Assembly: GCA_011050235.1 (NCBI GenBank) | Contig: DRGC01000017.1 | Location: 62,001 to 126,000, forward strand | Direction of reading: 5' to 3' | DNA: 64,000 nucleotides | Origin: Phycisphaerae bacterium | GTDB lineage: Bacteria > Planctomycetota > Phycisphaerae > SM23-33 | Shown here: one piece after another, positions 7,868 through 49,051 of the stretch | How the letters are laid out: every line of letters begins with the position of its first letter | How positions within the stretch are numbered: the stretch's first letter is position 1 | Position numbers and translations under genes: made by a program | The notes under the pieces: generated by a model | Database searches by the model: none | What the model was told of the DNA's origin: nothing | Seen by the model: only the letters and a program-made list of their open reading frames with translations

Positions 7868-8676
7868 TATGCGGCTCCGATCAGTTGGAATGCGTCAGTA
7901 ACCTGCAACTTGTCAGAGATGCTAATCGGTCCAGAGCGGAAGACACCATTGGGGCTCACCGTAGCACAGCCAATGCGCAGGGCACAGGCGTCATAATCCG
8001 GCCTATCTGGAACATAATGGAAACTATCATCAACAAGGAGGTCCCTGTAGCTGTTGCGAATTAATAGCAATGATCGTTTGAGCCTGTACGAGAATGACTT
8101 GGTACCGCAGTACGAAGAGGCGCGTCCCGCTACGGTAAGGGGCCTCACCAGAAAGCGGGCGCTCAGGGATTCGCAGAGCTCTGCAATCGCCGGGAGTTCC
8201 GACACGTTGCCATCCGAAACAGCGGTACTGATTTCCACCGGAACACCAAGGGAGAAGAACGTATAGATGGCCTCCATTGCTTGTCGCCATGCCCCGGAGA
8301 TCCCCCGACGTTGGTCGTGGACCTCTGCGGTCATTGCATCCAAGCTGACCTGAGCGACGGAGAGGCACGAAAGAAGCCGTGACTCAGACTTTGCCAATTC
8401 CGGGATATGTGTTCCATTGCTGAGAACACTTGTTGAAAGGCCAAGCGACTGGGCCCCTCGCAGTAGTTCAACCGTGCCGTCCCAGAGAAACGGTTCGCCA
8501 CCAGTAATGTGTACGCTCTGGAGGCCCATGGGAATCATGGCGCGGAGGATCCGAAGCCATGTAGCTGGTGAGAGCTCGGCTCCCTTGCGGAACGGCCCCG
8601 AGTCATTAAAGCAGTAGAAACACCGCTGGTTGCAGCGGTGCGTCACTTCGATGTTCAAATGTCTCATACGAACCAT
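7867..8676 (-). CDS. radical SAM protein with a short SPASM-like C terminus
   Basis: The product is 269 aa. The [4Fe-4S]/SAM motif is C-x3-C-x2-C at Cys15, Cys19 and Cys22 (THRCNQRCFYCFN), followed by the GGEPF motif at 59-63 and SLDAMTAEVHD near 133. The C terminus has two Cys in DYDACALRIGCATVSPNGVF, resembling a cut-down SPASM/twitch region that could hold one auxiliary cluster. It is shorter than classical SPASM maturases (350 aa or more). ATG 8676 is supported by AAGGAGC 6-7 bases upstream. It leads the operon after the small regulator. Related proteins modify peptides or small molecules; no precursor peptide was recognised here. Confidence 0.88.
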   Translation of the reverse strand: MVRMRHLNIEVTHRCNQRCFYCFNDSGPFRKGAELSPATWLRILRAMIPMGLQSVHITGGEPFLWDGTVELLRGAQSLGLSTSVLSNGTHIPELAKSESRLLSCLSVAQVSLDAMTAEVHDQRRGISGAWRQAMEAIYTFFSLGVPVEISTAVSDGNVSELPAIAELCESLSARFLVRPLTVAGRASSYCGTKSFSYRLKRSLLLIRNSYRDLLVDDSFHYVPDRPDYDACALRIGCATVSPNGVFRSGPISISDKLQVTDAFQLIGAA

Positions 8677-8700
8677 CAGTTGCTCCTTGGTTGAAGTCGG

Positions 8701-8901
8701 TCACTTCTTATGAAGCTCTGTCCACATCTCTTCGATGCGGCGCAAAGCCAAGGGAGACGGCTTGCCCCGGCCGTTTTCCCAGCGGTTTACGGTTGACCAC
8801 GTCACGCCGACCTTGGCCGCGAACTGTTCCTGCATCAGCCCAAGCTTGGTGGGCAGATTGCGGATGGTTTCCGCTACTGCGTTGCCCTTCTCTCTTGGCA
8901 T
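8701..8901 (-). CDS. small XRE-family helix-turn-helix regulator
   Basis: The 66-aa protein consists almost wholly of one HTH: LMQEQFAAKVGVTWSTVNRW (residues about 22-41) matches the Cro/CI helix 2-turn-helix 3 pattern and is followed by ENGRGKPSPLALRRIEE. It has no oligomerisation or ligand domain. It lies 24 bases upstream of the radical SAM gene on the same strand and probably heads that transcript, so regulation of the operon is a reasonable inference. Confidence 0.8.
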   Translation of the reverse strand: MPREKGNAVAETIRNLPTKLGLMQEQFAAKVGVTWSTVNRWENGRGKPSPLALRRIEEMWTELHKK

Positions 8902-37517: not shown

Positions 37518-37780
37518 CAACAACTCCAATCCGCGTCCTGCTGCGACCATCACCCGCCGCGAGCACAGACCGGCAGCGCCAGGTCGCTTCCTCTATATAG
37601 TCGGCCGGGCGGCCCGCGATGTTTCCGGAAATATTCTCTGGGGCTCTTACTCTCGGTGTAGATTACTCTATGGGCGTCATCAGGGGGATGTGTGCGCAGG
37701 AGTGCTTTGCACGTCGGCGGCTGGTTGGCGGATGTGGCGCCAACGCCCTCGGGCACGAAATCCTTACGAAGGATGTTGCG

Positions 37781-38758
37781 ATGAACGACAGATTTGTTGG
37801 CGACGTGGTGCAACGCTGTCCCGGCAATCCGCTGGTGTCTCTGCACGATCTGCCGTTCCGCGCCAGCGATATCTGGAACGCCGGTGTAACGGAGTTCGAC
37901 GGTGACGTGCTGCTGCTGTTGACCGTGGAGACGCTGCAGGGCCATCACCAGATATACCGGGCCGTTGGCGCCGACGGCAGGAACTTCGTCGTCGACGCCG
38001 AGCCGTTCATGGCCCCGCTGAGTGGCGGTCGAGCCGGCATGTACGAGGGCCTCGGCATCCGCGGGCCGCGAATCACCGTCCTGGACGGCGTGTATTACCT
38101 GACCTACGTGGCCGAGGGAGACCACGGCCTGCGGCTGGGGCTGGCCAAGACGTCGGACTTCCGATCCGTCGAGCGGCTGGGGTACATCTCGCAGGTGGAC
38201 GTCAAAGGCGGGGCGCTCTTTCCGGCCAAGATCAACGGGCGATACGCCGTGCTGAAGCGCCCGCGGCCCGGCGCGAGCATCTGGGTGAGCTATTCGGACG
38301 ACCTGGAGTTCTGGGGCGACGACGACGCCGTGATCACCCCGCGAGGCGGCTATTGGGATTCAACGCGGGTCGGCGTAGGCATGGCCCCGGTGTTGATCGA
38401 CGAGGGCTGGCTCATCATCTACTACGGCGAGAAGGTCACCTCCGCCGGGCCGCTCGTTCGGCTGGGGGCGGCCGTGCTGGACCGCGACGACCCGTCCCGC
38501 GTGCTGGCCAGATCGAACATCCCGATCCTCTCGCCGCGCGAGAAATACGAACGCATCGGCAACGTGCCGAACGTCGTGTTCTCCTGCGGGGGCTTGTTGC
38601 AGGACGGGCAAGTGCACATCTACTACGGCGCGTCGGACAGTTGCGTGTGCCTGGGCACAGCCGATGTCCGTGACATCATCGACGTCTGCCATGAGGCCGA
38701 CCCGCAAGAGGCCGACACCGAAGCCCCAGCACCCACGTCAGGCCAAAGCCGCAGCTGA
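37781..38758 (+). CDS. GH130-family beta-mannoside phosphorylase-like enzyme, copy 1
   Basis: The product is 325 aa. ATG 37781 is used, with AAGGA about 8 bases upstream and homology to the next gene starting here. It is a five-bladed beta-propeller family: NPLVSLHDLPFRASDIWNAG (about 14-33), GIRGPRITVLDGVYYLTYVA, GALFPAKINGRYAVLKRPRP and SPREKYERIGNVPNVVFSCG. The last block is the GH130 hallmark near the phosphate/metal region. Family members phosphorolyse or hydrolyse beta-1,2/1,4-mannosides. It is followed by a paralogue 13 bases on, so a tandem duplication is clear. Exact linkage specificity cannot be assigned. Confidence 0.85.
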   Translation: MNDRFVGDVVQRCPGNPLVSLHDLPFRASDIWNAGVTEFDGDVLLLLTVETLQGHHQIYRAVGADGRNFVVDAEPFMAPLSGGRAGMYEGLGIRGPRITVLDGVYYLTYVAEGDHGLRLGLAKTSDFRSVERLGYISQVDVKGGALFPAKINGRYAVLKRPRPGASIWVSYSDDLEFWGDDDAVITPRGGYWDSTRVGVGMAPVLIDEGWLIIYYGEKVTSAGPLVRLGAAVLDRDDPSRVLARSNIPILSPREKYERIGNVPNVVFSCGGLLQDGQVHIYYGASDSCVCLGTADVRDIIDVCHEADPQEADTEAPAPTSGQSRS

Positions 38759-38771
38759 CAGGAGCCGCCCC

Positions 38772-39701
38772 ATGCCCTATATGATCGGCAGAGACCTGAT
38801 GCACCGCTGGGAGCGAAACCCCATCATCACGCGGCAGGATATTCCCTTCCCCTGCAACACGGTGTTCAACGGCACGCCGGTCAAGGTCGACGGGCAATAC
38901 TACATGATCCTGCGCGTGGAGGGCTTGGAGGGGAGGTCGTTCTTCGCACTGGCCGACAGTGGCGACGGACTGCACTTCCAGGTTGACCCCCACCCGTGCA
39001 TGATGCCCGCCGCCTCCGGGCCGTTCGAATCGTGGGAGTCCAACGGCATCGAGGACCCTCGCCTGACGGTGCTGGAAGGCAAGACCTACATCATGTACAC
39101 AGCCGTCGGGCCGCGCGGGCACGTGATCGCCCTGGCCGAGACGAAGGACCTACGCCACTACGAGCGGATCGCCACGGTGTCCGAGCCCGGCAACAAGGAC
39201 GGCGTGCTGTTCCCCGAGAGAATCGGCGGATTGTATGCCAGACTCGACAGGCCCATCGGCGGCGACGTCGGCAGTGTGTGGGTCTCTTACTCACCGGACC
39301 TGGTCAACTGGGGGCGTAGCGAGTTTGTGTTCGGCCCGCGGGCGCGGTACTGGGACTGTTTCCGGGTCGGCGCCTCCGCCCCGCCGATCCTGACCGACGC
39401 CGGCTGGCTGGAGGTGTACCACGGGGTGAAGATGACCTCCGCCGGGCCAATCTATCGCATCGGCACGATCATGCTGGACCGGGACGACCCGTCGCAGGTG
39501 ATCGGGCGGTGCGTCGAGCCCAGCCTGTCGCCGCGAGAGGACTACGAGCGGGTGGGCGATGTCGGCAACGTCGTGTTCGCCTGCGGGGCGATCGTCGAAG
39601 ACGACGGGCAGATGAAGGTCTACTACGGTGCAGCCGACACGTCGATATGCGTGGCGACGGGGGACCTGGACGAAATCATCGCCTCCTGCCTGGATCCCTA
39701 A
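38772..39701 (+). CDS. GH130-family beta-mannoside phosphorylase-like enzyme, copy 2
   Basis: The product is 309 aa from ATG 38772, with AGGAG 8-9 bases upstream (the open frame from 38664 overlaps copy 1). It shows the same blocks as copy 1: NPIITRQDIPFPCNTVFNGT, GIEDPRLTVLEGKTYIMYTA with the conserved ED-x-R, GVLFPERIGGLYARLDRPIG and SPREDYERVGDVGNVVFACG. Copy 1 has GPRIT where copy 2 has DPRLT, so only copy 2 keeps the Asp of this motif. They may differ in activity. The two are probably cotranscribed. Confidence 0.87.
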   Translation: MPYMIGRDLMHRWERNPIITRQDIPFPCNTVFNGTPVKVDGQYYMILRVEGLEGRSFFALADSGDGLHFQVDPHPCMMPAASGPFESWESNGIEDPRLTVLEGKTYIMYTAVGPRGHVIALAETKDLRHYERIATVSEPGNKDGVLFPERIGGLYARLDRPIGGDVGSVWVSYSPDLVNWGRSEFVFGPRARYWDCFRVGASAPPILTDAGWLEVYHGVKMTSAGPIYRIGTIMLDRDDPSQVIGRCVEPSLSPREDYERVGDVGNVVFACGAIVEDDGQMKVYYGAADTSICVATGDLDEIIASCLDP

Positions 39702-39742: not shown

Positions 39743-40099
39743 GCAGAGGCGACAGACATCGCCGCGTGCGTCCCGATGATCGGGCACTTCATCGACGCCG
39801 GCGTCGACATGCTCAACCCCATCCAGATCGGCGCCGACAACATGGACCCGGCCGCATTGAAGAAGGAGTTCGGCAAGGACATCGTCTTTTGGGGCGGCGG
39901 GTGCGATACCGTCAACGAGTTGACCGAGGGGACGCCTCAGCAGGTCAAGGACAAGGTCAGGCAGCGGATCGACATCTTCGGCCCCGGCGGCGGCTTTGTA
40001 TTCGTGCACACCCACAACATCCAGCCCGGCGTCCCCCCGGCCAACGTCGTCGCCATGCTCGAAGCCGTCAACGAACACGGCGCCTGCCCCCTCACCTGA
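39743..40099 (+). pseudogene. C-terminal remnant of a UroD-family gene
   Basis: The frame 39743-40099 reads AEATDIAACVPMIGHFIDAG, VDMLNPIQIGADNMDPAALK and THNIQPGVPPANVVAMLEAV, the C-terminal third of uroporphyrinogen decarboxylase-like proteins (compare the intact gene at 57273-58343, which has VDAGLDVLNPIQPECLDIDE). About two-thirds of the protein and the start are missing; the break falls next to the hairpin at 39717-39737. This is a truncated gene, not a functional small protein. Confidence 0.75.
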
Positions 40100-40470: not shown

Positions 40471-40621
40471 CCAGCCGCTCGACTGGACTTGCGATAAACC
40501 GCTCGACTCGATTCGATTTCCAGGCAGGAGTACCTTCGGACACTTCAGTCACCTTGCACGTCTTCGTCTCAATAGCCACGCACCGCTCGCGATGAACAGG
40601 CCCATCGTGGCCGGCTCGGGA
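40471..40621. repeat. PEP-CTERM tail/3' flank repeat, copy 1
   Basis: This roughly 150-bp stretch is nearly identical to 41840-41986. It covers the last 24 codons of the 40549 gene and about 80 bases of 3' flank. Differences are scattered substitutions and a small indel near 40520. Confidence 0.8.
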
Positions 40622-41676
40622 ACACCGGTGAGTCGCACGTCGTCGATACCGACCCAGCCCGTGCCGCCGCTCTCGGCATCGAGCAACTCGACATACACGT
40701 CCTGCCCGAGCCACGCAGTCACGTCCCCCGACTGCGAGACCCAGTTGTCGTCACCGAGGATTTCGTCATCGCCCCAGGTCAGCAGAACCGAATCGTCACC
40801 GGCGTCTTTCAGGAAGATGCGCTGGGGATTGGCGCCGCGATCCATCAGGCCGAAGCCGGCGGACCAAAACTCAATCGTGTCGCGGACGATGGTGAAGTCC
40901 GGGGATCGGGCTGTCCCCGTGCCGCTATCGGCGCCGCGAATGAACTCCCCGCCTTCGGGGGGCGCGTGTCCGTCATCCGGGAACTGGCTGATATTCACGG
41001 CATCGAAATGGAACGTGCTACCGGTCAGGGCCCAGAGAGGCTGATCATCGCCGATTTCGAGCGTGAGAACACTGGTGGCGTCGCGTCCGACCGTGCGAAT
41101 GTTGTCGATGGCCATCCATCCAAAGGCACCGGCGCTGTCGTCTGTCAGCAGCAGTTCGACCTCCACGCCGAGATAATCGCCGGTATCGACCCGGTAGGAC
41201 TGGAAGCCGGCCGTGAAAGGAGCCGTGCCCTGGACGAGCACCTTGCTATCGCTGGTCCTCCGCAGGATCCAGGTGTTATTCATGTCGGCGAACTGATTGG
41301 TGTCGTTGGCGTAGGAATAGATGTTACCGTCTTGGGGGTTGCTGCTGCCCGTGCCGCCGTAACCGGCCATGACGAACTCCAACGTGTTCTCGTCGATTGT
41401 GAAGGCCGGCGACAGGGCCGTGCCGCGAGGCGTGTTTGCATTGATCGTGTCGTAGGAGACCAGTTGTCGCCCCCCTTGCCCGGCCGTGCCGGCCGGATTG
41501 GTCGTATGGTTGTTCCAAGAGGGTGTCGGGCCGGCGATGTCGGTAATCGTCCAGCCGGCCAAGTCACCGTCTTCGAAGTTGTCCACGATCATCCCCGCCT
41601 GCGCGGCGGCGCCCAGCAGAGCTAGCATGGCCACGCCGGTCAACAGTATCAGGGCCGTTTTCGTCTTCATCGACAT
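40549..41676 (-). CDS. PEP-CTERM sorted exported protein
   Basis: The product is 375 aa. The signal peptide is TALILLTGVAMLALLGAAAQ (about 6-25). The body has two beta-rich modules (NFEDGDLAGWTITDIAGPTP; LLLTDDSAGAFGWMAIDNIR; VELLDAESGGTGWVGIDDVR), which resemble carbohydrate-binding/discoidin-like jelly rolls. The tail VPEPATMGLFIASGAWLLRR RRAR is a PEP-CTERM signal: VPEP, one hydrophobic helix, basic cluster. This directs exosortase-dependent processing at the envelope. No exosortase is in the window. The tail and 3' flank are shared with the next gene. Confidence 0.9.
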   Translation of the reverse strand: MSMKTKTALILLTGVAMLALLGAAAQAGMIVDNFEDGDLAGWTITDIAGPTPSWNNHTTNPAGTAGQGGRQLVSYDTINANTPRGTALSPAFTIDENTLEFVMAGYGGTGSSNPQDGNIYSYANDTNQFADMNNTWILRRTSDSKVLVQGTAPFTAGFQSYRVDTGDYLGVEVELLLTDDSAGAFGWMAIDNIRTVGRDATSVLTLEIGDDQPLWALTGSTFHFDAVNISQFPDDGHAPPEGGEFIRGADSGTGTARSPDFTIVRDTIEFWSAGFGLMDRGANPQRIFLKDAGDDSVLLTWGDDEILGDDNWVSQSGDVTAWLGQDVYVELLDAESGGTGWVGIDDVRLTGVPEPATMGLFIASGAWLLRRRRAR

Positions 41677-41839
41677 ATCTCATTCGGGCGCCATTGTCCC
41701 GATTGGTGAAATGCTGCGGGCCGCGGATGCGTCTAAACGGATGCTGCCGGAGTTACTGTTTCATATCATTGCATCTTGTCAGGCCGCGTTGATGTGCGCG
41801 TTCTTCGCGGATACACCAGTGTCGCCAATCCACCGACGA

Positions 41840-41986
41840 CCAGCCGCTCGACTGGACTCGCGATAAACCGCTCGACTCGAGTCGCCAGGCAGGAGTATCT
41901 TCGAACACTTCAGTCACCTTGCACGTCTTCGTCTCAACAGCCACGCACCGCTCGCGACAAACAGGCCCAGCGTGGCCGGCTCGGGG
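41840..41986. repeat. PEP-CTERM tail/3' flank repeat, copy 2
   Basis: This is the second copy of the repeat at 40471-40621, same orientation. It spans the 3' flank and the tail codons of the 41914 gene. The palindrome CGACTCGAGTCG in the flank is intact here and degraded in copy 1. Confidence 0.8.
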
Positions 41987-42618
41987 ATGGTTCCATCGGC
42001 ATGGGTTAGCAGGTCGGCCGGATCGAACGGCCCGTTGATCGTCGAAACTCGGACACGGTCGATGGAACCGTTGAAGAATTCTACGCCTCCGTCTCTGGCG
42101 CCAATGGTCAGCACCGTACCGGCAGGCAGACCGGGCACAACGCCGACGTCCGCGCTATCCGGCACACCGTCGAGGTAGAACGTCGCAACGCCGCCGGTAC
42201 AGACGAACGCCACAGCGACCTTCGTGTCCGTCGTGCCGGCGAGATGACCAATGAAGTCCCATCCTGCGACCTTGCTCCCCCAACGGCCCCCGTTCTTGGC
42301 GCTCAACTGAATAGCCCACAGGCCGTTGCCGTTGGAGACGAAGTCGTCATCGCCGAATGCACGGGCGCTGATGATCGCCTCGACCACGAACTCGTCAGCG
42401 GCCCACAGTGGCGTTGTCAAAAGATTGATCGCGTCGTTGCCGTCAACGACGAGTTGACCGCCGGAGTAGGTTGGGTTGCCGACTTCCGTGAAGCCGGCGG
42501 GTGTCTGGTTGTCGGCGAAATCCCAGTCTCCCACCGTAATAAGACCTGCCTGCGCCGCACCACAGAGGGTCAGAATCAGGCACGCAATCGCCGCAATTGT
42601 GAAGGTCCTCATACGCAT
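41914..42618 (-). CDS. PEP-CTERM protein with a LamG-like domain
   Basis: The product is 234 aa from ATG 42618 (AAGGATCG upstream); the frame is open to 42687. Signal peptide TFTIAAIACLILTLCGAAQA. The body (GDWDFADNQTPAGFTEVGNP; EFVVEAIISARAFGDDDFVS; VAFVCTGGVATFYLDGVPDS; IGARDGGVEFFNGSIDRVRV) is a concanavalin-like LamG/laminin-G fold. Tail IPEPATLGLFVASGAWLLRR RRAR is almost identical to that of the preceding protein although the bodies are unrelated. Confidence 0.87.
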   Translation of the reverse strand: MRMRTFTIAAIACLILTLCGAAQAGLITVGDWDFADNQTPAGFTEVGNPTYSGGQLVVDGNDAINLLTTPLWAADEFVVEAIISARAFGDDDFVSNGNGLWAIQLSAKNGGRWGSKVAGWDFIGHLAGTTDTKVAVAFVCTGGVATFYLDGVPDSADVGVVPGLPAGTVLTIGARDGGVEFFNGSIDRVRVSTINGPFDPADLLTHADGTIPEPATLGLFVASGAWLLRRRRAR

Positions 42619-42716
42619 GCGATCCTTCGTGCTGACCCGTGATGTCCCCGTAGCGACGTGTCGCGTGGTTCTTGTCATAGACCGCACCTTCCCGCTCGGT
42701 GATCAGGCTGCATGAC

Positions 42717-43409
42717 TTACGTCCTCCGCCTCAGCAGCGCCAGGCCGCCGCCCAAGACCAGCAAGCTCATCGTCATCGGCTCGGGCACGATGGCTGGCAC
42801 GACGACATCGTCGAAGACGACCCACCCCCAACCGTTACTGGTGGAGTCGAACACATCCACCGTGACCGTCCTGCCGGCCAGCGGCGCCAGTTGGGCCTGT
42901 GAGAAGCTGATGATAAACGGGCTGTTGTGGCCACCGGACGCGGCGGTCAGTAGGTAGTTGTCGGCGCCGACCTCGCGCAGACCCATGCCCAGCGCGTGGA
43001 CGCCATCGCCCGCGCTAGTGCTCGAGGCCAGGTCGCTAACGGAGGTCGGTAAGTTATCGCCGTCCACGCCGCCATAGGTCCGCATCGACAGGTCGCCGTC
43101 GGCGCCGCTGAGCACGAACTCCGGAGAACGGACCAAGAGCGTGTCGTGGGGGCTGGCGCCGCGATTGCTGAAGTTCACCTCAGACATATAGTAATCATCG
43201 CTGCCGCCCCAGGGCTCGGTGTTGCCGTGCTCGCCTTGCTTGCTGGCCAAGAACGTCAGGCTGGCGTCGGACTTCACCACAGTCCAGCCCTGCATCGTGC
43301 CATCGGCGAAGTCATAGGTGATGACGTCGCCCGAGGCGACGGTCGGCATCGCCAGTAGCCCCGAGGCCACCAAGGCCCCAAGCAGGTAGAAACGCATTTC
43401 TGTCTTCAT
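42717..43409 (-). CDS. PEP-CTERM exported protein
   Basis: The product is 230 aa from ATG 43409, where a signal peptide starts (EMRFYLLGALVASGLLAMPT). The frame is open to 43619 but the added N terminus is Arg/Cys-rich. Body: ITYDFADGTMQGWTVVKSDA, SPHDTLLVRSPEFVLSGADG, TVDVFDSTSNGWGWVVFDDV, a beta-sandwich like the second module of the 40549 protein. Tail VPEPMTMSLLVLGGGLALLR RRT is a PEP-CTERM signal of a different subtype. It heads the three-gene PEP-CTERM group. Confidence 0.85.
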   Translation of the reverse strand: MKTEMRFYLLGALVASGLLAMPTVASGDVITYDFADGTMQGWTVVKSDASLTFLASKQGEHGNTEPWGGSDDYYMSEVNFSNRGASPHDTLLVRSPEFVLSGADGDLSMRTYGGVDGDNLPTSVSDLASSTSAGDGVHALGMGLREVGADNYLLTAASGGHNSPFIISFSQAQLAPLAGRTVTVDVFDSTSNGWGWVVFDDVVVPAIVPEPMTMSLLVLGGGLALLRRRT

Positions 43410-43463
43410 CGTGCGTATCCCCGCCGGCTTGTCCCCATGCACTGGACAGGTCCCGCCCTGACA

Positions 43464-43484
43464 CCTGCCTGACCGGTAGGCAGG
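43464..43484. repeat. CCTGCCT/AGGCAGG hairpin, copy 1
   Basis: A 7-bp stem CCTGCCT...AGGCAGG encloses GACCGGT. The same stem sits inside the tRNA-Val fragment at 44009-44027. Confidence 0.5.
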
Positions 43485-43682
43485 AAAGGTGAAACCGCCT
43501 GCATGGGTAACGTTCGCTGCCGTTGCCGGGCGAGCACCGTCTCGGCAACAACAGCCCTCGCGGCGCCGGACCATCCGCCGCCGCTGGTCAGAAAAGGCAC
43601 GCCGGACGAACATATCCACAGAACTGGAAGTGCCTGCGACATACTAGGGGCGTACCGGGTATTTCCCAAATTCTCGCCAAGG

Positions 43683-43760: not shown

Positions 43761-43994
43761 ATCAACACCTGGCCAGCGTTCTACGAGGCCCGTAGCCGCT
43801 AGTTGAGACGACCGAACATTCCAACAGAGCTTCGATCGCAATAACGGTCAGGCGCCGATCCCCGAGAAAAGCAGGGCGCCTCGCCTCTGGAAACGAGTCA
43901 CCCTCCTTCGCCAAGGCTTCGGAGGACAGGCATCGTTTTTCCGCCCAAGTAAAGACAAAGCCACAACCTGTTGCCGGGTTGTGGCTTGCCGTAC
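43761..43994. other. spacer, no gene seen
   Basis: Contains a CCTCC...GGAGG hairpin around TTCGCCAAGGCTTC (43910-43933) of the kind scattered in many environmental genomes, and no supported coding frame. Confidence 0.4.
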
Positions 43995-44058
43995 TGGGCG
44001 TTACAGGACCTGCCTACCGCAGGCAGGCTCGAACCTGTGACTTCTTCCTTGTAAGGGA
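43995..44058 (-). repeat. partial copy of tRNA-Val with a hairpin insertion
   Basis: 43995-44008 and 44028-44058 together reproduce the 3' half of the tRNA-Val at 48978-49051 (acceptor 3' strand, T arm, variable loop and the 3' side and loop of the anticodon arm). Between them sits a 19-base insertion, CCTGCCT-ACCGC-AGGCAGG (44009-44027), exactly in the T arm. Similarity stops after the anticodon arm. The copy cannot be a functional tRNA. It is in direct orientation with the intact gene 5 kb away. Confidence 0.75.
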
Positions 44059-44248
44059 CTTCAGGAAAATGCAGCGTTTCCGTAAGTTACGTTAATTACA
44101 AGCGTTTGAAAAAGGTATCATCGCAACAGAACCGCTTAAATGCCCTTAAACGCAACCACAAAAGTGTAGCGTGTGGCCCGCCACGTCGCAAGACGGTCGT
44201 TCATTGGCCGGATGGCACTTGTCGCGCCTTCGGGCTCTTGGCGGAAGG

Positions 44249-47200
44249 CTAGTCTGGCAGGCGTCTGCGCCAGACGTCGCGACCGTCACTGTAGATGACG
44301 TGTCGGCCGTCCGGCGAGAAGTCGATGCTCCTGACCTTGTGAACGATTTCGTCGAAGCGCGGGAATGACGCCTCCCGGCCCGTTTGGAGGTCGTAGAGCC
44401 TCAGCGACTTGGTTCTGTCGGCAAATACCGCGTATCGACAATCTGGGCTGATGGCCGCGTGCCCGATTCTCTTCTGGTCATCTTGCACGGTACTGATCAG
44501 CTGGCCCGTAGCCGTCGACCAGATTCGCAACGTGCCGTCAGCCCCTCCCGAGATGAGTCGATCACCATCTGGGGAAAACCTTAAGGGCCAAGCGCGATGG
44601 TCGTGGCCTGACAAGACGATCGGGTCTTCGTCTGTGCCGACGCGCCATATTCGAATCTTGCCCGACTCATCACCAAGAGCAAGCCACTCCCCGTCGGCAG
44701 ATGCCGCTGCACTTTTCGGAGCCCACGGTGGGCAGCCGACAAACCGACGAATCTCTTCGCCCGTTCGGGTGTCGAACATGACAAATCCATCGTCGGTCCC
44801 GGCCTGACCTGCAATCAGCCAGCTCGCGTCACGGGCGACGCAGTGTACCCGCCATCTGCCGTCAACTTGCCACTCTGTCTTGATGAAGTTGTCGGTGTCT
44901 TGAGATACGCCAGCGGCTTCATCGGGAAGGGCCATCGGCAATGACCGGACGCGCAGGGGTTCACGGCGCGAGTTGGCCAGGATGACGTGACCATCGTTGG
45001 GCGTGATAGCGATCGGCGTCATCGGCGGGTCCTGTTTGCCGAGTTCTCGGACATGTTGCCAAGTCCGTGAGTCCCATAGGTGAAACGTGTTGAAGGGATG
45101 GCCCCTGAACATGTAGTAGCTATGACCAACCGTGCGCATGGTCCCACGTCCTTTACCGTCCGGTCCGACGACTCTTACGGGGATCATCTCGGTCGAGACC
45201 GGTCGAGGGGCGATGGCTTCCTCGGGGAGTTTCCACACAAGGGCTGTGCCGTCAGTGCTCCCCGTCACCAGACAACGTCCATCAGGCGAGAACGCCAGAG
45301 CAGTGACCCATCCGCCATGGCGGCGTTTCTCTTCGTGAATGATCTCGCCAGTGGCTACGTCATAGATGCAGAACTCGGTGCGGTAATTCCGGCTGGATTC
45401 AACCGCCAAGGTCAGGCCGTCCGGCGAGAATGCCATGGCTTGGGGCACATCGCGAGCCAAGAAGGTCCGAATGACCTCCCCCGAAGCCATGTCCCGCAAG
45501 CTGATCCAGCCCGACTCACACACGGCTATGATCTGATCATCGGGCGAAAGAGTGTAGGCATTCACGGGGGCGGGAGCCGTCCAGACCGGCTCGCCGGTCG
45601 TGCTGGACCACACTGTCAAGGGCTTGTCTATTCCACGCGTGCTGTGACCGACGAGTAGCTCGCCATCACCGGAGAACTCGCAGGTGTCGACCAGGACCAG
45701 ATCAGGAATGCGTAGTAGCTCCCGGCCCGTGTCAGTCTCTCGCACCGTTATGGTGTTATAGTGGAAAAGCATGCCTCCCCCCACATCGATTGCCTCCCGA
45801 TTGATGCTCAGGCATGCCAGTCGCTGGCCATCCGGGGAGAATGCCAGGGATTTTATCCACGTGCCTTGGCTGGCGTATCCGCCAGTCTTGACACCTGTCG
45901 CCTGATCGCGAAACACGATCTGATTCCCCTCCGCCATGGCCAGATTTGTCCCGTCGGGCGACACGGCCAGAACTGGCCGGACCTCTCCGAGGCGTTCGGG
46001 GACAGGAACACGTATCTCTCTGAGTAGTTCGCCCGTCTTGACCTGCCACATCCTGACGGGGTTCCTGCCGATCAACGTAAACAGTCTCTCTCCATCGGCG
46101 GAGAATTGCATATCCCGGATGGGCGTCTCATGGTTTTGGAAGGTATGAACAGGCTGGTCGTCGGCCATGTTGTGAATCAAGGCAGTTCCGTCGTACTTCG
46201 TGTTCGTAGCAAACACACCGATTCGGCCATCGGAGGTGAAGGCCATGTCGCGCACGTGTCGGCCGATATTGATCTCTCGCAGCTTCTGTCTCGATGCGAT
46301 ATCCCAGATGTCAACAAACTCCCCTCCTCTGGAATGGGCGAGATGACCATCGGGCGTGAAGGCCAAGCTGAGTGTCTGATAGCTCAGGTCTGTAGGCAAG
46401 GGCTCAAGCTCTTCGCGCGTCTGGAGTGACCACAGGCGGATAGTGATCAGCCCCTCTGGTGAGCGGCCGCTGACGGCCAGCGTGTTGTCATCACGTGAGA
46501 ATGCCATGGATAGCCATGACTGTGACGCGAGGTCTGCCAGTGCGAACTTCTTGCCAGTGATCATGTTGAACAGCCGCAGTTCCGTGCCATTTACTACGGC
46601 CAACCACTTGCCCGTATCGCTGCAGAAAAAGAAGGTCTTCTTGCGTTCGTCCAGGCGCCACTCCGCCCACGGCGTCTGCGTGGCCGTGTTCACAAGATGC
46701 ATCTTGTCCCCCTTGGCGATCACAGCGTAGCCCCCAGCTGTTGTGATGCGGGGAGAATAGTCGCGGGCGAGGTACTTCGAACAGTCCACCAGCGTCACCA
46801 GAACATTCGTGTCCCGCCACTGCCACGAGTAGACGCATTTGCCCCGCACGATGATGACTCGATTGCCATCGTCAGAGAAACGAGCGTCCTTGGCCCCTCT
46901 CGGCATCCTGGCGAGCGTCTTGCCAGTCTGCACGTCTGCTATCTTGATTCCGCCAGTCCCGACCAGCATCAGCGCGCTCTCGTCGGGAGATAGCCTCACT
47001 TGCCTGAGTCCGTGCTCCTTCAATCGCCGCGTTCCCATGCGAGCGATGGTGCCTTGCGGCAACGGATCACCATAGAAATCGGTGTGAATGTCAGGAGTGG
47101 CGGCCTCAGCTTGAGTTTCAGATGTCTCAGGGTTGCGGCATCCAATGATCGCCAGGGGGACCGTGACGCAGACGGCCAGAATTGCGGCGATGAGGATGCC

Positions 47201-48394
47201 TCGGCGTTTCAATGCGCGGCGGATTCGGGCTGGATTCAGGATATCTCGGACACGGCCCTCCAGCCTGGCTGGGCGGACCATGGCGATGGAGCTGTGCACA
47301 GCCAGGCCACTGGCCTGCAGGCCGGAGGAGACGTTGACGAGATGCTCCGCATAGGCGGAAGGCCGATTGCCCGCGGCAAGGACCAGGTCATCGCAAGCAC
47401 GTTCGCCTTCGCTGGTGACGCGTCGCCCAGCCAACCAGACCAACGGATTGAACCAGTAGACCCCGCATGCCAACTGCGTGATGATTCGGGTCAGGCAATC
47501 CCGTCGCTTGACATGGGCCAGCTCGTGCAGCAATACCACCTGACAACGATCAGCTGACCAATCAGCAGTCTTGCCAGGCAGCATCAACCTTGCACGGAAC
47601 ACGCCCCACACCATGGGCATCGTGCAGCGATCGCTTCGGAGGAGATCAACACGTCGGCCGACGCCCAGTTGCTCAGCGGCCTGCCTCAGCGAGGCCAGCC
47701 ATGATTCATCGGTGATCGTGTGAGCTCGTCGTCTCAGTCGCCACAGGCTGGCTCGGCCCAACACCATTGGGGCCAGGCACACAATGACGCCAACTGCCCA
47801 TATAAGCAGCACGCAGATCATGATGGTCTCAGACGATATTGGTGCGTCCTGCACGGCCATAGCTTTCGATGAGGAAGGGGGCGGAGGAACCACCGACGCC
47901 GTGGGGGCCGGAACGGTAGGTGTCGTGTGTGCGATAACTGGTACATCCTCCGCGGCGGAAGCCGGTACATCGTGCGCGGAGGGAAGCTGTGGCTCTGAGG
48001 GGGCCTGCAGGGATGGCTTGGGAGCAGCCTGAGATGCCGATGCGGCCGCCAATGGCACGTCGGAAGTACGCTCAACCGGCGGCTGCATGAATACGTCGGA
48101 GACAGGCTCAGGCCGTGATGATTGTGACATCGTCGCCGCGCTCTCAGCCTGACGCCAGTTCGGCAGGACCTGCCAGCGTGGCAGTGCGATAGACACAATC
48201 GGCAGGACCAATATCCCCGCCAGTGCAACCACCCATACTAATTGCCGCTCGGCTGCGGATGCCTTCCGCATCAACAGCGTCACCGCGCCTGCTATCGCCA
48301 GAATGGCCAGCCCCTTGACCGATGCGTCCAACAGCATCAACAGCCAATCGCCCGTCACGCCCGTCGGTACTACGAAACCGAGAATCCCCGTCAT
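44249..48394 (-). CDS. M56/BlaR1-type membrane metallopeptidase fused to WD40 repeats
   Basis: The product is 1381 aa. N-terminal membrane helices (about 15-40 and 47-70), a Pro/Ala/Ser-rich loop (about 80-185), further helices near 195-215, then the zinc site VLLHELAHVKRRD (HELAH near 288) and GERACDDLVLAAG near 332, as in BlaR1/MecR1. A last helix near 395-415 (GILIAAILAVCVTVPLAIIG) is followed by more than 900 residues of WD40-type repeats, for example DDGNRVIIVRGKCVYSWQWR, LAFSPDGRCLVTGSTDGTAL and LRFSPDGDRLISGGADGTLR. Classical BlaR1 has a penicillin-binding sensor there instead. Signal binding by the propellers would trigger cleavage of the BlaI partner encoded 2 bases upstream. The ligand is unknown. 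Confidence 0.9.
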   Translation of the reverse strand: MTGILGFVVPTGVTGDWLLMLLDASVKGLAILAIAGAVTLLMRKASAAERQLVWVVALAGILVLPIVSIALPRWQVLPNWRQAESAATMSQSSRPEPVSDVFMQPPVERTSDVPLAAASASQAAPKPSLQAPSEPQLPSAHDVPASAAEDVPVIAHTTPTVPAPTASVVPPPPSSSKAMAVQDAPISSETIMICVLLIWAVGVIVCLAPMVLGRASLWRLRRRAHTITDESWLASLRQAAEQLGVGRRVDLLRSDRCTMPMVWGVFRARLMLPGKTADWSADRCQVVLLHELAHVKRRDCLTRIITQLACGVYWFNPLVWLAGRRVTSEGERACDDLVLAAGNRPSAYAEHLVNVSSGLQASGLAVHSSIAMVRPARLEGRVRDILNPARIRRALKRRGILIAAILAVCVTVPLAIIGCRNPETSETQAEAATPDIHTDFYGDPLPQGTIARMGTRRLKEHGLRQVRLSPDESALMLVGTGGIKIADVQTGKTLARMPRGAKDARFSDDGNRVIIVRGKCVYSWQWRDTNVLVTLVDCSKYLARDYSPRITTAGGYAVIAKGDKMHLVNTATQTPWAEWRLDERKKTFFFCSDTGKWLAVVNGTELRLFNMITGKKFALADLASQSWLSMAFSRDDNTLAVSGRSPEGLITIRLWSLQTREELEPLPTDLSYQTLSLAFTPDGHLAHSRGGEFVDIWDIASRQKLREINIGRHVRDMAFTSDGRIGVFATNTKYDGTALIHNMADDQPVHTFQNHETPIRDMQFSADGERLFTLIGRNPVRMWQVKTGELLREIRVPVPERLGEVRPVLAVSPDGTNLAMAEGNQIVFRDQATGVKTGGYASQGTWIKSLAFSPDGQRLACLSINREAIDVGGGMLFHYNTITVRETDTGRELLRIPDLVLVDTCEFSGDGELLVGHSTRGIDKPLTVWSSTTGEPVWTAPAPVNAYTLSPDDQIIAVCESGWISLRDMASGEVIRTFLARDVPQAMAFSPDGLTLAVESSRNYRTEFCIYDVATGEIIHEEKRRHGGWVTALAFSPDGRCLVTGSTDGTALVWKLPEEAIAPRPVSTEMIPVRVVGPDGKGRGTMRTVGHSYYMFRGHPFNTFHLWDSRTWQHVRELGKQDPPMTPIAITPNDGHVILANSRREPLRVRSLPMALPDEAAGVSQDTDNFIKTEWQVDGRWRVHCVARDASWLIAGQAGTDDGFVMFDTRTGEEIRRFVGCPPWAPKSAAASADGEWLALGDESGKIRIWRVGTDEDPIVLSGHDHRAWPLRFSPDGDRLISGGADGTLRIWSTATGQLISTVQDDQKRIGHAAISPDCRYAVFADRTKSLRLYDLQTGREASFPRFDEIVHKVRSIDFSPDGRHVIYSDGRDVWRRRLPD

Positions 48395-48396
48395 GG

Positions 48397-48780
48397 CTAT
48401 TTCTCCTGCTGTTTCGCTTCGTTAATGAGGTCGGTAAGGCGTCGTCGCTGCTGGTTGGTGAGCTTCGCGTTGGGATCGGACAGATGAGCTGCCACCGCCT
48501 GATCGAACGAGTCATCGAAGAACGTGCTGATCACACGCTGCAGAGCAGACCTGCCGACCTGCTTGCGCCCCGCCGTGGGCCTATAGATGTACTCCTGGCC
48601 ATTCTTGCGATGCTTGAGGTGGCCCTTCTCTTCCAGTATCCGTATCAGCGTGCGGACCGACGAGCGGTCCGGAGGATCAGTCATGGCGTTGAGTACTTCC
48701 GTAACCGTTGCCTTACCCATCCGGAAAATGATGTCCATGATCTGCCGTTCACGTCGAGAGAGACTTGTTTGCTTGCCCAT
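48397..48780 (-). CDS. BlaI/MecI/CopY-family transcriptional repressor
   Basis: The product is 127 aa. The winged helix has LSRRERQIMDIIFRMGKATV, TEVLNAMTDPPDRSSVRTLI (recognition helix) and RILEEKGHLKHRKNGQEYIY (wing), residues 7-67; the C-terminal dimerisation helices include STFFDDSFDQAVAAHLSDPN. It ends 2 bases before the M56-WD40 start. In this system the peptidase inactivates the repressor by cleavage. Its own promoter carries an overlapping palindrome, in keeping with autoregulation. Confidence 0.92.
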   Translation of the reverse strand: MGKQTSLSRRERQIMDIIFRMGKATVTEVLNAMTDPPDRSSVRTLIRILEEKGHLKHRKNGQEYIYRPTAGRKQVGRSALQRVISTFFDDSFDQAVAAHLSDPNAKLTNQQRRRLTDLINEAKQQEK

Positions 48781-48820
48781 CGTAATCCTTTCGGCTCAGC
48801 GGGAGTATTCTGGCCACTGC

Positions 48821-48857
48821 CCGGGTAAATTATTACCCGGCAGTCGAGGCGAGTCAA
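48821..48857 (-). promoter_or_regulatory. sigma70 promoter with palindromic operator for blaI-M56
   Basis: On the minus strand -35 TTGACT (48852-48857) and -10 AATAAT (48829-48834) are 17 bases apart, each 5/6 to consensus. A palindrome with perfect 8-bp arms CCGGGTAA / TTACCCGG around 4 bases (48821-48840) covers the -10. This is where a BlaI-type dimer would block transcription. It is about 45 bases upstream of the repressor start codon. Confidence 0.7.
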
Positions 48858-48977
48858 TCGCGATCTGAGAAGATATCGACCTACTGCTGACCTGCCCCTC
48901 GCAAGTTGACCCGAGCTGCGCGTGCATCCGGGACCCCTGTGTTCACCGTGTCGGCCGGCTTGGTACTGTGAGCCGAA

Positions 48978-49051
48978 TGGGCGTTACAGGACTCGAACCT
49001 GTGACTTCTTCCTTGTAAGGGAAGCGCTCTAGCCAACTGAGCTAAACGCCC
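48978..49051 (-). tRNA. tRNA-Val(TAC)
   Basis: This is a 74-base cloverleaf: acceptor GGGCGTT/AACGCCC with discriminator A, D arm TAGCTCAGTTGGCTAGAGC, anticodon arm CTTCC-CTTACAA-GGAAG with anticodon TAC, and T arm ACAGGTTCGAGTCCTGT. CCA is not encoded. A damaged partial copy lies at 43995-44058. Confidence 0.95.

Follow-up and report, generated by a model that had tools for sequence, protein, structure and literature searches.

How did a two-gene repressor–sensor pair come to lie between an intact tRNA-Val gene and a second, partial copy of that gene? The locus lies within our window, the whole stretch of 64,000 nt of DNA that was analysed, and a reading made from the sequence only had taken it for the footprint of an insertion at a tRNA 3′ end. 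The features on which our analysis draws are the following:

43958..43987, minus strand: terminator-like hairpin adjoining the displaced copy (11 pairs, T-rich tail; folding z −4.2)
43995..44058, minus strand: displaced 3′ part of tRNA-Val, attR side (45 tRNA nt interrupted by a 19-nt palindrome)
44009..44027, no strand: 19-nt palindrome CCTGCCTACCGCAGGCAGG, inserted in the T-loop of the displaced copy
44059..44170, no strand: distal element end, homologous to contig C125 of the relative G022, with an arm-like repeat AAAAGTGTAG at 44160–44169
44249..48394, minus strand: BlaR1-type sensor of 1381 aa, Peptidase_M56 followed by WD40 repeats (PF05569, 6.2e-35)
48397..48780, minus strand: BlaI-type repressor of 127 aa, Penicillinase_R (PF03965, 4.7e-26)
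48821..48840, no strand: perfect dyad CCGGGTAATAATTTACCCGG, presumed BlaI operator overlapping the −10 element
48829..48857, minus strand: sigma-70-like promoter of blaI, TTGACT-17-AATAAT (10/12; 1 found vs 1.5 expected)
48858..48977, no strand: tRNA-proximal stretch, the expected place of the integrase side of the clade described below, with neither arm repeats nor similarity to that side
48978..49051, minus strand: intact tRNA-Val(TAC), attL side (ARAGORN; Rfam RF00005, 75 bits)

All 45 tRNA nucleotides of the displaced copy match the intact gene, and the orientation is the same; the sequence-only reading, which had the 3′ half of tRNA-Val repeated directly about 5 kb to the left, was accurate here, also as to position. 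A repeat search found 44028–44058 identical to 48992–49022 (31 nt, exact). The second block is a 15-nt match to the tRNA 3′ end at 43995–44009, of which one base overlaps the palindrome ambiguously, so that its length is 14–15 nt. When the palindrome was removed by script and the tRNA 5′ part added, the displaced copy gave the 74-nt tRNA letter for letter. It begins in the 5′ strand of the anticodon stem and ends with the discriminator base, and so covers a little over the 3′ half of the tRNA. A correctly oriented, exact 31-nt repeat of part of a tRNA is not a product of chance. Between the two copies, over 4.9 kb, we found blaI and the M56-WD40 gene alone, as had been described. Directly outside the displaced copy lie three consecutive minus-strand genes (40549–43619), the ends of which resemble PEP-CTERM sorting signals by eye.

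The genome is a metagenome assembly in 98 contigs and may be incomplete, which leaves some room for a wrong join. Yet the locus is inside a 134.6-kb contig, the repeated stretch is short (31 and 14–15 nt) and a homologous element end is present in another genome, and we regard an assembly error as barely credible.

When an element integrates at a tRNA gene, the host 3′ end is displaced outward and the element provides a replacement. The 3′ part of the intact tRNA-Val was presumably supplied in this way, and the hairpin at 43958..43987 is presumably the original tRNA terminator. The intact gene has no evident terminator: 142 nt comprising the tRNA and its present downstream DNA fold like shuffled sequence (z −0.13). 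Some relatives do have an evident terminator downstream of tRNA-Val (by eye: G001, G010). That such a hairpin stands at the displaced copy and not at the intact gene fits the displaced copy being the original host 3′ end. Neither this hairpin nor the palindrome had been remarked upon in the sequence-only reading.

We then compared the element end with those of relatives. With the displaced copy and adjoining element DNA as query, a search of 60 relatives returned a single longer match, on G022 contig C125 (76% identity, query positions 25–170); the remaining matches were to tRNA genes or, in four short cases (G010, G045), to the palindrome. Contig C125 holds a 45-nt tRNA-Val part, 95.6% identical, followed by DNA that resembles the element end in the window. 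Beyond the tRNA part, the alignment of the two ends scores 70, a value reached by 0 of 1000 shuffles (mean 21.1, sd 3.7). The core boundary is identical in both, and AAAAGTGTAG occurs at an offset of 101 nt in both. Five other comparisons of ends or flanks gave scores at shuffle level (reached by 504, 738, 98, 514 and 614 of 1000 shuffles), and the right end in the window resembled neither the integrase side nor the distal end of G022 better than shuffles did. Of the attP-type ends, the window therefore has in common with the related element the distal one only, the integrase-side end being absent. On another G022 contig, an intact tRNA-Val is accompanied by the same repeats and by a tyrosine-recombinase gene that is truncated (172 aa). 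In G048, part of AKR1, tRNA-Val and AKR2 (so named from their translations) follow one another uninterrupted on one contig, and in G022 AKR1 is on the side of the displaced copy and AKR2 on that of the intact tRNA. G022 is thus the occupied form and G048 the empty form of that tRNA-Val locus. The occupied locus is split over two contigs, and G022 is the sole relative that shares the element end in the window.

These comparisons also bear on a duplication of the tRNA tail with no integrase involved, whether through local miscopying or through a satellite element. It would suit a genome in which no clade integrase was found, but the copy ends exactly where the displaced copy of G022 ends, the homology continues beyond it into the element, and the terminator is on the outer side. 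We consider such a duplication very improbable; its satellite version, raised in the sequence-only reading, drew no specific support.

Full-length relatives of the integrase are encoded in G044 and G048 (384 and 385 codons of open frame); that of G044 matches PF00589 (9.6e-11). In a scan of the class, 12 of 397 genomes had matches to this clade at 1e-40. A scan of named genomes yielded 14 integrase loci. Twelve of these match at 55% identity or more over >160 residues, and in every one of the twelve the integrase gene starts 105–120 bp from a tRNA 3′ end: Val(GAC) at 3, Val(TAC) at 2, Pro at 5 and Ala at 2. No tRNA was found at the other two, a 63-residue match in a Desulfobacterales bin and a match of 29% identity in a Clostridia bin. 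Since most loci are on the same contigs in both sets, the two scans are not independent. In one further genome a clade integrase lies near tRNA-Gly. Among the genes close to element ends or integrases in relatives are AbiEii (G044), McrBC-family and PRiA4_ORF3-like genes (G022) and an ArdC-N gene (G546). Displaced tRNA copies were not found in 10 fetched loci of other integrases.

The genome of the window gave no match to the clade integrase and none at 1e-40 in the class scan, and there is no integrase gene between the two tRNA copies, in line with the earlier remark that the integrase is gone. From this absence, and because the tRNA-proximal stretch lacks both arms and similarity, we judge that the integrase end was probably lost. 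Comparable decay is seen in G022, with its truncated integrase gene, and in G008. In G008 (L092:2211–2379, contig C61), an integrase start accompanies 21 nt of the tRNA-Val 3′ end, with an intact tRNA-Val 7.4 kb away; we count this remnant as another relic of the family. Short N-terminal integrase pieces of 31 and 38 residues, with arm-like repeats and with no tRNA found nearby, occur in L157 (G022 contig C338, near 8568–8721) and L156 (G010 contig C29, near 1512–1665), respectively.

The homologous end and integrase remnant of G022, the empty locus of G048 and the position of the clade's integrases beside tRNAs support the island footprint, and on this point the sequence-only reading was borne out. 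We conclude that the 4.9-kb interval is very probably what remains of an element that integrated at the tRNA and then decayed, keeping the genes for BlaI and the BlaR1-WD40 sensor. For the recombination step and the order of events we infer the following. A tyrosine recombinase of the G022/G044/G048 clade would have joined attP to tRNA-Val in the anticodon-stem/loop region, rebuilding the tRNA with the 3′ part of the element and pushing the host 3′ part and its terminator to the far end (43995–44058). The tRNA-proximal end, with integrase and arm sites, would later have been lost and with it autonomous movement, and the BlaI and M56-WD40 sensor genes would be what the element still carries.

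We also asked what occupies tRNA-Val loci in relatives, none of those compared being of the same genus. BlaI was present at 0 of 20 such loci (16 typed as TAC, 4 untyped; several cut by contig ends); the sequence-only reading had named a module kept at tRNA-Val in relatives without the partial copy as speaking against insertion, and no such case was seen. Nor did the right flank, phnCDE, have counterparts at the 20 loci, apart from one weak match to phnC (37.8% identity, L106). G023 has two GH130-like genes (named from their translations), 60% and 67–69% identical to the pair at 37619–39701 in the window. An uninterrupted tRNA-Val lies ~1.9 kb from them, and their side and orientation relative to it agree with those in the window, where the pair is 4.3 kb from the displaced copy. 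The fetched G023 contig holds no displaced copy, and in G023 the best match to the sensor, at 32% identity, is not a close relative. The synteny is no more than suggestive, as it involves just two neighbouring genes that none of the other tRNA-Val loci has. The search for an empty locus that had been proposed earlier showed one for the sister element (G022 occupied, G048 empty) and, for the locus in the window, only partial synteny with G023. Beside the GH130-like pair of the window, a short open frame (39776–40099) resembles by eye the C-terminal part of a uroporphyrinogen-decarboxylase-like protein and may be a gene fragment.

In the pair itself, the Penicillinase_R repressor adjoins the M56 sensor, which is the BlaI/BlaR1 arrangement. 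The M56-WD40 protein had no relative in the named genomes. A look at codon use, also proposed earlier, set the pair apart: GC3 of its two genes (0.69 and 0.70) is the lowest of 14 genes in the window. The same genome has a second BlaI/BlaR1 pair at L074:6777–11815 (G000 contig C76), between fusA and clpC (names from the translations), neighbours that were not found beside 12 BlaI loci of relatives. The two BlaI proteins are 73% identical and the M56 domains 67% over 302 residues or 61% over 428, and the C76 sensor has LRR-like repeats where that of the window has WD40.

The second pair opens another account, in which the footprint is real and the pair was never cargo: the element would have shrunk to its ends and the pair later been copied in from the chromosomal one on C76. 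The two pairs are indeed sisters in both trees (support 99/98 and 100/100), and no other element of the integrase clade was seen with BlaI/BlaR1. However, they are only 61–73% identical, their sensor domains differ, and the pair fills the space between the two element boundaries with no other gene. A later copy is thus possible though the less likely course, and we lean, short of proof, towards the pair being original cargo. Of the earlier claim that the module arrived on a small element that lost its recombinase, the tRNA element and the loss stand; an origin outside this genome, which has a sister pair of its own, is not shown.

To judge from its sequence, the pair appears to work and to regulate itself. 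Taken by itself, the promoter is weak evidence, being no more frequent than expected by chance. The dyad before the C76 pair is GGCTAATAATTTAGCC, which departs from CCGGGTAATAATTTACCCGG symmetrically, in the two half-sites alike, and the BlaI proteins differ, among other positions, at residues 38 and 40, which we take to be near the presumed recognition helix. Several relatives have dyads of the GCTAAT..ATTAGC type before blaI, and others have none or different ones. Sites without mismatch occur in the genome only before the two blaI genes. A wider regulon was considered and rejected: with up to 3 mismatches allowed, the backwards control gave 13 and 5 matches and the pattern 6 and 2, and we therefore claim no sites beyond these two. 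We infer an autoregulated switch in which BlaI would sit on the operator over its own −10 element and the M56 domain would presumably inactivate BlaI upon a signal read by WD40; this switch is possibly insulated from that of the sister pair. With two BlaI/BlaR1 systems that have unlike sensors and symmetrically changed operators, this genome offers a natural test of whether such repressors are insulated from each other.

Of all parts of the locus, the 19-nt palindrome is the one least accounted for. Eight exact copies (A or G at position 8) are present in the genome of the window, as opposed to 0 for the backwards control. Hairpins of the form GCTTCTGC..GCAGAAGC occur at 10 places in this genome, 8 with a loop of 2–3 nt and 2 that have exactly this 19-nt palindrome inserted in the loop. 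Four of the eight copies (loci L023, L026, L027 and L028) are at the tip of a stem scoring 11–14, where scores of at least 8 were reached by 0.5% and 0.6% of controls. The T-loop copy, with a stem score of 5, is not among them. Three of the four tip copies belong to one hairpin family and may stem from a single event. The hairpin-tip position was also tried as a general rule, but only 4 of 31 distinct copies, and 0 of 23 in relatives, had a stem score of at least 8; given the relatives, we claim no rule. The palindrome is rare (10 of 392 genomes across the phylum, 5 of 60 relatives) and is also present in viral contigs (11 stretches), where no shared setting was evident by eye. As the displaced copy of G022 is without it, the palindrome here probably arrived after integration. 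We put forward only tentatively, as the less likely case, that CCTGCCTRCCGCAGGCAGG is a tiny mobile unit that inserts precisely at hairpin tips, including the T-loop, without clear target duplication; palindromes at hairpin tips would matter more were this mobility true. Literature searches on palindromes within hairpin loops or tRNA genes brought up only papers on other repeats.

How does the locus compare with known systems? In BlaI/BlaR1 (MecI/MecR1), a Penicillinase_R repressor and an M56 sensor are encoded together, with a dyad operator at the promoter. The window likewise has repressor and M56 sensor together and a dyad at the promoter. Unlike BlaR1, its sensor has WD40 repeats and, among the best 25 of 35 Pfam families for this protein, no penicillin-binding domain; nor was a beta-lactamase gene noticed in the interval that the tRNA copies bound. 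Papers retrieved for BlaI, WD40 and Planctomycetes were, by their titles, on other subjects only. Another known class is that of REP/REPIN-type palindromes (PMC3116915). Like these, the palindrome in the window is short and dispersed, in near-identical copies; it differs in being only 19 nt long, in having several copies at the tip of another hairpin and in having one in a tRNA T-loop. Islander (PMC4383910) defines tRNA-integrated genomic islands by the same signature, a regenerated tRNA and a displaced 3′ fragment in the same orientation marking the two ends of the element, and requires an integrase gene inside. As in its anticodon-loop class of sites, the repeat in the window reaches back to the anticodon stem. 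Unlike those islands, the element in the window has no integrase and two genes left, and we therefore file it as a decayed relic and not as an intact island. It shares with the G022/G044/G048 elements the same tRNA-Val and, as in G022, the core boundary, a homologous distal end and the arm-like repeat; it differs from them in lacking integrase and integrase-side arms and in carrying BlaI/BlaR1-WD40 instead of the AbiEii or McrBC-family genes near the ends of its relatives. A decayed tRNA-Val element is a known kind, and the family evidence for it is good. The clade itself targets Val, Pro and Ala tRNAs in Planctomycetota, as judged by the named-genome scan, and the locus illustrates how a small insertion without integrase can be recognised as a decayed island by its displaced tRNA end and by homologous ends in relatives.
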